This document shows, in pieces, positions 48,163 to 49,800 of a stretch of 64,000 bases of DNA (within the stretch, counting starts at the first letter, position 1; each line of letters opens with the position of its first letter). The notes under the pieces were generated by a model. That model made no database searches and had not been told where the DNA came from. It saw only the letters and a program-made list of their open reading frames with translations. Origin of the DNA: Nitrospirae bacterium JdFR-85 (GTDB lineage: Bacteria; Nitrospirota; Thermodesulfovibrionia; Thermodesulfovibrionales; JdFR-85); the NCBI GenBank assembly GCA_002011745.1, contig MTOU01000017.1:1-64000 (forward strand), given 5' to 3'. The translations under genes and the position numbers were made by a program.

Positions 48163-49647
48163 TTATCTTCCACCCAGCAGCGCAAGGACATTCTGGGGGA
48201 TTGTGTTTGCCTGTGCCAGCACAGAGATACCAGCCTGCTGCAGTATCAATGCCCTTGTCAGTTTTGCTGTCTCAACAGCATAATCAGCATCCTTTATTCT
48301 TGACTGTGCAGCACTCAGATTTTCACGGGTGTTCTCTAAGTTTCTGATAACTGACTCAAATCTGTTCAGTTTGGCACCAATTATCGCCCTTTCTGAGTTA
48401 ATCGTCTCCATAGCCTCTTTAACTGCAAGCATGGTGAGATTGGCTGCAGCTGCTGTTGTCACCACCATAGAGTTCACAGGAGCATTGGAGAGGCCTTCCG
48501 AAGTATCTGAGGTATCACCTGTTAATGCACCAGCTGTTGAGGTGGCATCAAAAGATACTGTTGTCTGATTCAGATCCTGATTCAGCACTATAGCACCATT
48601 TGAACCTGCATCAATAGAGGTTGTGCCATCTGCAAAGAAATTGGTGATATCAGAGTCAACACTGGAGTTTGCTGTAACAGTAATTGCTGCACCATTACGG
48701 TTGATGAGAACGATCCTATCATCACCAGCACCAACATTCACCCTGACAGCAGTTACCCCATGTTGTGCAGTCTTTGCGTTGATAGCAGTAACAAGATTAT
48801 CTGCAAGACCGCCAAGAGTAGTGCTTGCTGCAACAGCATCTATACTAATACCGTTTATAACCAGAGCACCTGCTGCAATGTCAGCAGTAGAAGCAGCAGC
48901 AGCATCAAATCCAGTACCGATTAGACCATTACCATATACAAAGGCAGTTACTCCTGTACTTGAAGTATATTGGTTCAATCTGTTAACTTTTTCCACAGCA
49001 AGAGTATTGGCACTGAACTGGGAACCGATAGAAGCACCATTAACAGTAGGAGTTGCTGAACTTGCTGTTACATACTGAATTGCGATTCTTAAAGCAAGGG
49101 CACTGTCTGAGAGATTCGTAATAGTAGAATAATTAGAGGCTACTCCCATTGTACTTGGTGAGAGGTTGCTAATAGTGATGTTAATCGTCTCATTCACCTC
49201 AACTCCCACCTGGATATCAGCAGAAAAGCCACCTGCCAGGAGTTTCTGACCATTGTAACGTGTCTGATTTACGGTTCTGCTGAGCTCATCAATTAGCTGG
49301 CTCACCTCCTGATTCATTGAAGACCTGTCAAGATCTGTGTTATAACTTGCAGCCTGCTCTGCCAGCTCATATATCCTCTGCAATGCATTGGTCATCTCAT
49401 CTATGGCACCCTCAGCTGTCTGCAATATTGACAGCCCATCATTGGAATTACGGATAGCAACAGTCAGACCCCTGATATTCCTTTCCATCCTTGTACTGAT
49501 AGCCAGTCCAGCTGCATCATCCTTTGCTGAATTGATCCTCAATCCTGAGGACAGCCTCTGTAAGGCAACCTGAAGTACTCCCTGTGATCTTGAGAGGTTT
49601 CTTTGGGCATTTAATGAAAGGATATTGGTGTTGATTACAAGTGCCAT
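48163..49647 (-). CDS. fliC: Flagellin
   Basis: Filament subunit of 494 residues. The conserved N-terminus (ALVINTNILSLNAQRNLSRSQG...LSSGLRINSAKDDAAGLAIS) and C-terminus (INSERAIIGAKLNRFESVIRNLENTRENLSAAQSRIKDADYA...AQANTIPQNVLALLG) frame a variable alanine- and threonine-rich centre (about 180-390). AAGGAGGAAT precedes the ATG. It has its own sigma-28 promoter, a leader with CsrA-like features and a terminator, so it is expressed as a strong single-gene unit. Confidence 0.97.
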   Translation of the reverse strand: MALVINTNILSLNAQRNLSRSQGVLQVALQRLSSGLRINSAKDDAAGLAISTRMERNIRGLTVAIRNSNDGLSILQTAEGAIDEMTNALQRIYELAEQAASYNTDLDRSSMNQEVSQLIDELSRTVNQTRYNGQKLLAGGFSADIQVGVEVNETINITISNLSPSTMGVASNYSTITNLSDSALALRIAIQYVTASSATPTVNGASIGSQFSANTLAVEKVNRLNQYTSSTGVTAFVYGNGLIGTGFDAAAASTADIAAGALVINGISIDAVAASTTLGGLADNLVTAINAKTAQHGVTAVRVNVGAGDDRIVLINRNGAAITVTANSSVDSDITNFFADGTTSIDAGSNGAIVLNQDLNQTTVSFDATSTAGALTGDTSDTSEGLSNAPVNSMVVTTAAAANLTMLAVKEAMETINSERAIIGAKLNRFESVIRNLENTRENLSAAQSRIKDADYAVETAKLTRALILQQAGISVLAQANTIPQNVLALLGGR

Positions 49648-49654
49648 CTCTTAT

Positions 49655-49706
49655 TCCTCCTTGAACCCTCTTTGGGCCTCCATGCCCTTATGCAGGCAAA
49701 GCCTGC
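49655..49706 (-). promoter_or_regulatory. Flagellin mRNA leader with GGA hairpin and palindrome
   Basis: On the minus strand, GGGC and GCCC (49674-49677, 49684-49687) form a hairpin whose six-base loop ATGGAG presents GGA, and the Shine-Dalgarno itself is AAGGAGGAA (about 49654-49662). A second hairpin, GCAGGC-AAA-GCCTGC (49692-49706), lies upstream. This resembles CsrA control of flagellin mRNA in Bacillus; no csrA or fliW is in the window. Confidence 0.45.
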
Positions 49707-49773
49707 TTCTGTTGGGACCCGGCAGTTTTACCTTTCACCACCTCCCTTCCTGCCCTATTGATCCCATTTCTTA

Positions 49774-49800
49774 TTTTCGGTAAAAATCCAGAAAACTTTA
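49774..49800 (-). promoter_or_regulatory. Sigma-28 (FliA) promoter of flagellin
   Basis: On the minus strand TAAAGTTT (49793-49800), an 11-base spacer and ACCGAAAA (49774-49781). The consensus is TAAAGTTT-N11-GCCGATAA, so the -35 is perfect and the -10 matches six of eight. Transcription would begin near 49767, about 120 bases before fliC. Confidence 0.8.

Follow-up and report, generated by a model that had tools for sequence, protein, structure and literature searches.

A flagellin mRNA leader in a Nitrospirota bacterium with the predicted layout of a CsrA-FliW-controlled operator and a conserved 5′ Shine-Dalgarno-like element

Here, we examined the flagellin mRNA leader in a 64,000-nucleotide stretch of the genome of Nitrospirae bacterium JdFR-85 (contig MTOU01000017.1, positions 1 to 64,000; the whole stretch is called the window below). 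Judging from sequence comparisons with relatives and from analogy with characterized systems, we read this leader as a two-site operator for the RNA-binding protein CsrA that would couple flagellin translation to flagellin export, and we put the probability of this reading at roughly 0.9. The same genome carries csrA beside fliW, both predicted CsrA sites recur in the leaders of relatives, and the leader has a further conserved element near its predicted 5′ end.

The flagellin leader and the csrA-fliW pair

The leader and its gene comprise the following features, given from the promoter to the gene.

49774-49800, minus strand: sigma-28-like promoter, with a -35 box TAAAGTTT (49800-49793), an 11-base spacer and a -10 box ACCGAAAA (49781-49774)
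49713-49766, minus strand: 5′ stem region P1 of the lowest-energy fold, with an outer helix (49766-49760/49719-49713) and an inner helix (49754-49750/49725-49721)
49738-49750, minus strand: 5′ "orphan" Shine-Dalgarno-like site GGAAGGGAGGTGG, for which no start codon is conserved
49692-49706, minus strand: perfect palindrome hairpin GCAGGC-TTT-GCCTGC, seen in the sequence and also formed in folds
49674-49687, minus strand: predicted CsrA site 1, hairpin GGGC-AUGGAG-GCCC, with GGA (49681-49679) in a six-base loop and CANGGANG context
49656-49663, minus strand: predicted CsrA site 2, CAAGGAGG, over the ribosome-binding site, with GGA at 49660-49658
48163-49647, minus strand: flagellin gene, 494 aa, the gene predicted to be regulated, with its ATG at 49647

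The promoter fits the sigma-28 consensus, including the standard 11-base spacer, and places the expected transcription start at about 49767; the leader is therefore predicted to be ca. 120 nt long and to begin upstream of 49690. The original prediction, made from the sequence alone, described a sigma-28 promoter about 120 bases before the gene, a hairpin presenting GGA in a six-base loop, a Shine-Dalgarno containing GGA and a separate perfect palindrome, and all four are found at the positions listed. A transcript starting downstream of 49690, which it had named as evidence against itself, does not apply, given that the promoter found lies upstream. The hairpin of site 1 consists of GGGC (49687-49684), AUGGAG (49683-49678) and GCCC (49677-49674), the Shine-Dalgarno stretch CAAGGAGGAA begins at 49663, and the two GGA are 21 nt apart. 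When folded from the predicted start, the leader reproduces the P1, palindrome and GGA-loop helices, with the large loop of P1 presenting the 5′ Shine-Dalgarno-like site, which is mostly unpaired (0.80); different pairings result when folding begins at another 5′ end and extends into the gene. The palindrome is an accessory hairpin outside the CsrA sites, and by inspection comparable palindromes occur at varying positions in relatives' leaders. When 11 family leader loci were compared with the 4227 covariance models of Rfam (E≤1), there were only two matches, far below gathering scores, at L005 and outside the leader.

Of the two flagellin matches in the genome, only that of this gene is strong; the second belongs to a FlgL-like gene that adjoins csrA. 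Both csrA and fliW, for which the original prediction had called, are present and adjoining, so that its further caveat, a genome lacking csrA, does not apply. In a genome profile search, csrA was found as a single copy (74 aa, with an extended C-terminus; PF02599, 89.5 bits) and fliW likewise (127 aa; PF02623, 119.6 bits). The end of csrA overlaps fliW by a few bases, and the pair comes after flgL on contig C21 of the 2.33-Mb genome, the window contig being C12. Each of the two genes is present in all 17 family genomes. Residues 1 to 73 of this CsrA align to chain 5dmb_D, a CsrA solved in complex with FliW, and the FliW aligns to its partner chain, 5dmb_A; gammaproteobacterial-type CsrA chains match the query, ungapped, only up to residue 52-55. 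In the ungapped alignment to chains such as 1y00_A (numbered by hand), L4 and R44, which we take to be RNA-binding residues, are retained. An R44A variant of CsrA has been reported (PMC7652899). An in-frame TAA in the FliW match was considered as a sign of a broken gene and rejected, the profile merely extending past the normal stop codon. A second near-perfect sigma-28 promoter (TAAAGTTT-N11-ACCGATAA; L001, minus strand, ca. 1043-1016) lies where fliW ends, within the first part of the reading frame that follows.

Across the 206 genomes of the class Thermodesulfovibrionia (Nitrospirota), FliW was found in 98 and a flagellin match in 89, the matches of G011 and G012 among the latter being FlgL-like; by a hand tally of the two listings, 85 of these 89 also have FliW. 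Several genomes of family f8 (Magnetobacteriaceae, G076-G089) carry two FliW genes.

The two GGA sites in relatives

In the window leader taken by itself, the chance of a GGA-loop hairpin is 0.18 (dinucleotide shuffles), and GGA within a Shine-Dalgarno is commonplace, occurring in 32 of the 62 other genes of the window. A single sequence is therefore not evidence for CsrA control, and the case has to be made from relatives. To this end, 91 flagellin leaders of the class were gathered (31 loci and 60 stretches), of which 90 were counted; the remaining one (L226) was dropped before all leader counts because the gene start was not reached. From genomes with several flagellins one or two places were taken and the leader of G112 was left out, so that counts for family f8 are partial. 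Under a strict rule (at least 4 Watson-Crick pairs, a loop of 3 to 8 bases with GGA in it, and a position no more than 110 nt before the Shine-Dalgarno), a GGA-loop hairpin is present in 80 of the 90 leaders, where dinucleotide shuffles predict 13.2; a looser rule (5- or 6-base loop, at least 3 Watson-Crick pairs) finds it in 83. When all 64 3-mers were placed in the two-site layout, GGA ranked first (73/90 versus 2.5 expected). The loops often read ANGGAN closed by C-G, i.e., the CANGGANG form that is described for high-affinity CsrA sites (PMC4894983).

The stem of this hairpin covaries. Over 60 distinct hairpins the covariation score was 0.620, compared with 0.181 when partners were shuffled and no more than 0.148 when they were slid, and double changes occur at all six stem pairs. 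Pairs four, five and six are formed in 58, 36 and 25 of the 60 hairpins, respectively; since rows were admitted only if the inner three pairs or more were formed, these outer pairs are the more independent evidence. A covariance model (R1) was put aside because its automatic consensus structure missed the hairpin, owing to misaligned 5- and 6-base loops in the underlying alignment (A3). The loop and Shine-Dalgarno GGA are thus kept in relatives while the stem varies; conservation of the loop GGA is what the original prediction had proposed to look for.

As an outside control, 77 mostly proteobacterial flagellin leaders from beyond the class were examined (FliW status is available for 50 of them: 37 from genomes without FliW, 6 from FliW-bearing Desulfobacterota by name and 7 from other FliW-bearing genomes; L068 and L125, which are class members, and L136, with a short upstream region, were excluded). 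In these, the strict rule found 8 hairpins versus 7.9 expected, and it found 7 at the starts of the 62 other window genes. Five of the 8 are canonical hairpins, and all five come from FliW-bearing genomes that are Desulfobacterota by name. In a separate Desulfobacterota sample (30 loci, one per genome, from 61 genomes with a match, leaning toward flagellins near the query), the GGA-loop hairpin was present in 19 of 30 leaders versus 4.9 expected. By eye, several of the hairpin-less Desulfobacterota leaders appear to have a sigma-54-like promoter. Within the class, f8 genomes have many flagellin copies (as many as 15 matches, in G080), and a sigma-28 promoter, hairpin or 5′ site is missing from several of them. 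One further locus (L311, G012:C56), at a contig end, has the full promoter, 5′ site and GGA hairpin in a genome in which no true flagellin was found; its flagellin gene was probably cut off by the assembly.

The sequence around the second GGA says more than that GGA itself. CANGGA stands at the Shine-Dalgarno in 85 of the 90 class flagellin leaders and in none of the 62 other window genes; outside the class, it occurs in 6 of 6 FliW-bearing Desulfobacterota, 4 of 7 other FliW-bearing genomes and 1 of 37 FliW-less ones. In the Desulfobacterota sample it accompanies 15 of the 19 hairpin-bearing leaders and 6 of the 11 that lack a hairpin. Within the sets examined, then, lineages with and without FliW can be told apart by CANGGA at the Shine-Dalgarno of their flagellin gene. 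The C of this motif is not paired with the 16S rRNA tail and therefore points to CsrA rather than to the ribosome. The original prediction of a CsrA/FliW-type layout with two GGA is in this way supported by relatives; the part of it that leaned on a GGA over the ribosome site is uninformative by itself, the CANGGA context being what is informative.

In 51 of the 83 leaders with a hairpin, the loop GGA and the Shine-Dalgarno GGA are 17 to 36 nt apart (mean, 25.8), and in the other 32, most of them from family f21, they are 42 to 117 nt apart. These long spacers (>36 nt) fold into a hairpin of their own (mean z, -4.0; 27/32 below -2), whereas the 51 short ones do not (mean z, 0.1). In the f21 leaders with long spacing (L162-L181 and others), an extra stable hairpin separates the loop GGA from the Shine-Dalgarno. 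CsrA dimers are reported to bridge sites 10 to 63 nt apart, with an optimum above 18 nt (PMC7652899), a range into which the 21 nt of the window leader falls, and by analogy the pattern of spacings fits a CsrA dimer spanning two sites. The idea that spacer hairpins restore an effective distance was rejected, as shuffled spacers shorten too; only the stability of the spacer fold counts.

A Shine-Dalgarno-like site near the 5′ end

The original prediction had overlooked the Shine-Dalgarno-like site GGAAGGGAGGTGG at 49750-49738. With a duplex energy of -15 kcal/mol or lower as the criterion (weaker leaders and L200, whose site lies at the cut end, were excluded), a site like GGAAAGGAGGTGAT is present in 78 of the 90 class leaders, with a mean of -19.3 kcal/mol; the energies refer to the general bacterial 16S tail, as the tail pattern was not found in this genome. 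In all 78, this site pairs with 16S rRNA more strongly than does the true Shine-Dalgarno (mean, -11.0). Within the genome of JdFR-85, a pattern made of the promoter and the 5′ site has a single match, namely, this leader. A simple pattern also finds a similar site in 18 of the 30 leaders of the Desulfobacterota sample.

The site keeps its distance to the promoter. It lies a median of 30 nt downstream of the -10 box (middle half, 26 to 32; 72 leaders with a recognized promoter) and a median of 124 nt from the start codon (middle half, 98 to 150; range, 84 to 230; 78 leaders). Leader length correlates at 0.98 with the distance from site to start codon and at 0.34 with the distance from site to -10 box. 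Because the distance is held to the promoter and not to the start codon, the site is tied to the 5′ end. An enclosing stem around it is likely from the predicted folds: such a stem recurs in relatives, with only 13 of 79 leaders reaching p<0.05 singly. An upstream reading frame behind the site was rejected as a general rule, since only 14 of the 78 leaders have a start codon 4 to 14 nt downstream of it. In the window leader, a 17-codon frame (GTG...TAA) can be seen by eye from about 49741 on the minus strand, 2 nt after the core of the 5′ site.

Taken together, these features suggest that the 5′ site may hold a parked, non-initiating 30S subunit that guards or primes a message whose translation CsrA would hold off. 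One competing explanation, which we consider possible though doubtful, is that it is a standby site that hands the 30S subunit to the true start and has no part in stability. The strong 16S pairing and the mostly open fold (mean unpaired probability, 0.58 for the site versus 0.51 for the whole leader) would suit such a role, and a standby site 100 nt upstream is known for tisB (PMC7708055); the fixed distance to the promoter, rather than to the start codon, and the hairpins that intervene speak against it.

The site might instead be a third CsrA site, making the leader a multisite CsrA sponge or operator, which we regard as somewhat less probable still. In Escherichia coli, glgC has four CsrA sites. 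GGA lies inside the 5′ site in 70 of the 78 leaders, the window site has two GGA in a loop-like setting, and the flaA leader of Campylobacter jejuni also titrates CsrA (PMC4894983). The conserved pairing with 16S rRNA, however, exceeds what CsrA would need, and 8 of the 78 leaders keep the pairing without any GGA. Moreover, the 5′ site is also found in leaders of the FlbT type described below, which were found by a pattern that includes that site.

AGAA leaders, proposed control and known systems

Seven leaders in three families of the class (f3, f12 and f13; G026, G027, G149, G156, G157, G158 and G161) belong to another flagellin type. They were met via the promoter and 5′-site pattern rather than a flagellin search. 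All seven genomes fall outside the 98 with FliW: G026 and G027 are recorded as having none, and the other five do not appear among the matches. By Pfam, the neighbors of the flagellin gene include FlbT in G156, G026, G161 and G158 and FlaF in G156, G026 and G149 (both at L318 and L321, FlbT at L320 and L323, FlaF at L317); neighbors in G157 and G027 (L319 and L322) are FlbT/FlaF-like by resemblance in a list of open reading frames. In all seven, promoter, 5′ site and a hairpin are present, and two AGAA, at -38 to -41 and at -17 to -18, stand where the GGA pair would be. The first AGAA is at the tip of a hairpin with a varied stem, and the second, in most cases, is part of a small hairpin that covers the Shine-Dalgarno. 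When each of the 256 4-mers was scored for joint presence in a hairpin loop and at the Shine-Dalgarno, AGAA came first (5/7 under the strict rule versus 0.04 expected). Leaders of the AGAA type within the class are L302-L306, L312, L313 and L317-L323 (f3, f12 and f13), all in genomes in which FliW was not found.

Having been noticed in these seven, the AGAA pair was then tried on flagellin leaders of alphaproteobacterial plasmids, which thus serve as an independent test. Among 20 such leaders, chosen from listed records mostly as one per genus or species, it was present in 8 versus 0.07 expected (4 in the first 13 and 4 in the next 7), and AGAA again ranked first of 256. The 8 (L324, L327, L329, L336 and L341-L344) come from Pelagibacterium, Methylobacterium, Erythrobacter, Sphingobium, Sulfitobacter, Alloyangia and Loktanella. 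The pair is found in none of the 90 CsrA-type class leaders, the window leader having the GGA two-site layout and not the AGAA one; in 1 of the 37 outgroup leaders without FliW and in 1 of the 62 other window genes; and in none of the 27 valid outside-class leaders beyond the 50 with a FliW status (the row for L136 being invalid). Several observations weigh against AGAA as a code. GGA also scores in 3 of the 7 and 2 of the 20 leaders; 12 of the 20 have no AGAA pair, including those of Rhizobiaceae, Azospirillum, Paracoccus and Cereibacter; and FlbT is on many of these plasmids but not all.

The pattern nevertheless suggests that the AGAA pair is a candidate recognition code of FlbT, and the sister group seems to have swapped its GGA sites for sites read by a different protein. 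No motif for FlbT is given in the excerpted text of a 2015 review (PMC4347634) or was found in the excerpts of the literature searched, and our search found no solved structural relative of FlbT. One broader, speculative possibility, for which we see even odds, is an interchangeable design of two sites about 20 nt apart, with one motif both in a hairpin loop and over the Shine-Dalgarno, read either as GGA by CsrA-FliW or as AGAA by FlbT-FlaF and swapped by changing both motifs of a leader. On this view FlbT, like CsrA, would bind two sites, with AGAA as its code, and in some leaders, whichever the regulator, a 5′-anchored Shine-Dalgarno would park a 30S subunit and keep the repressed message intact.

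The case for CsrA control of the window leader has to be set against a number of observations. Besides the 0.18 chance noted above, the stem of the window hairpin has only 4 pairs, and the stretch folded with part of the gene gives a z score of -1.84, 8 of 200 shuffles being equally good. Four class genomes with a flagellin match have no FliW match (G067, G071, G158 and G167), three of them 82 to 84% complete; one, G158, which carries both flagellin kinds, has a CsrA-type leader beside its FlbT-type one. In seven of the 90 class leaders, mostly from multicopy flagellins of f8 Magnetobacteriaceae, not even the looser rule finds the hairpin, and the hairpin layout is absent from all 7 leaders of FliW-bearing outside genomes other than Desulfobacterota. 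Finally, the short effective distance between sites is shared by shuffled spacers (28 versus 24.9 nt).

It is also conceivable, though quite unlikely in our view, that the hairpin is the site of some other RNA-binding protein or a transcription terminator, with CsrA incidental. The hairpin does persist at the same position, with an AGAA loop, where FliW was not found, and the architecture is therefore not bound to CsrA alone. Yet the window hairpin is not followed by a run of T on its 3′ side, and GGA is the foremost of the 64 3-mers in the two-site layout. For the CsrA reading itself, we count as favorable the presence of AGAA in place of both GGA in genomes without detected FliW. Least probable is that the GGA sites arose by chance in a purine-rich leader with an ordinary Shine-Dalgarno, as the frequencies in this one leader and in the window genes would allow but the hairpin, CANGGA and two-site counts in relatives and the covariation of the stem do not.

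We therefore return to the two-site CsrA operator. The elements, their conservation, the covariation, the adjacency of csrA and fliW and the full-length match to FliW-bound CsrA are established here; binding by CsrA, repression and relief by FliW would follow by analogy with Bacillus and Campylobacter. In the proposed mechanism, a CsrA dimer would be tethered by the loop GGA (49681-49679) while its second pocket holds the GGA of CAAGGAGG (49660-49658), so that the 30S subunit could not start at the ATG at 49647. Flagellin retained in the cell would occupy FliW, leaving CsrA free and translation off. The 5′ Shine-Dalgarno-like site (49750-49738) would be a third part of the device and not a CsrA site. 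By this analogy, CsrA very likely blocks flagellin synthesis until export is possible.

In the excerpts of the literature searched (PMC13407953, PMC8781033 and PMC8306008 among the sources), no CsrA-FliW leader is described in Nitrospirota, and no earlier description of a 5′ Shine-Dalgarno-like element in flagellin leaders was found. If our reading is correct, the CsrA-FliW checkpoint known in Bacillus, Campylobacter and Clostridioides would extend to Nitrospirota and, by motifs, to many Desulfobacterota. CANGGA offers a sequence signature for FliW-bearing lineages, and AGAA a concrete, testable target sequence for FlbT; the exchange of GGA for AGAA is the most valuable by-product of the analysis.

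Judged by its sequence, the leader appears to be a further CsrA-FliW-controlled flagellin leader to which a conserved 5′ element has been added. Like hag of Bacillus subtilis, in which the CsrA sites are A51-A55 and C75-G82, it has two sites at a similar spacing, one of them over the Shine-Dalgarno (PMC8523840), and the genome likewise has fliW and a CsrA with an extended C-terminus (PMC8523840; PMC7652899). Relative to published accounts of hag, the leaders described here have a hairpin with a covarying stem and the 5′ element, as well as an additional hairpin in the spacer in f21 and a few other families. The resemblance to C. jejuni flaA includes a hexaloop GGA, a second GGA at the ribosome site, a distance of 21 nt, a sigma-28 promoter and FliW as antagonist (PMC4894983). 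However, the flaA leader is 45 nt long with both GGA in hexaloops (PMC4894983), whereas the window leader is ca. 120 nt, has its second GGA outside a predicted hexaloop and bears the added 5′ element.

That element recalls the STAB-SD of Bacillus thuringiensis cry3A, in which a Shine-Dalgarno-like sequence close to the 5′ end base-pairs with the 16S tail without starting translation (PMC4113751). STAB-SD acts against RNase J1. Unlike that case, the genome of JdFR-85 (G000) has no match to RNase J (TIGR00649), and the element recurs in flagellin leaders of two phyla. In the FlbT/FlaF system of Caulobacter, a small protein similarly targets the 5′ leader of the flagellin message until the hook has been completed (PMC3930126), and FlbT control has been proposed to be analogous to CsrA-FliW (PMC4894983). 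The window leader differs in lacking the AGAA pair; FlbT and FlaF were found in sister families, whose leaders carry that pair.

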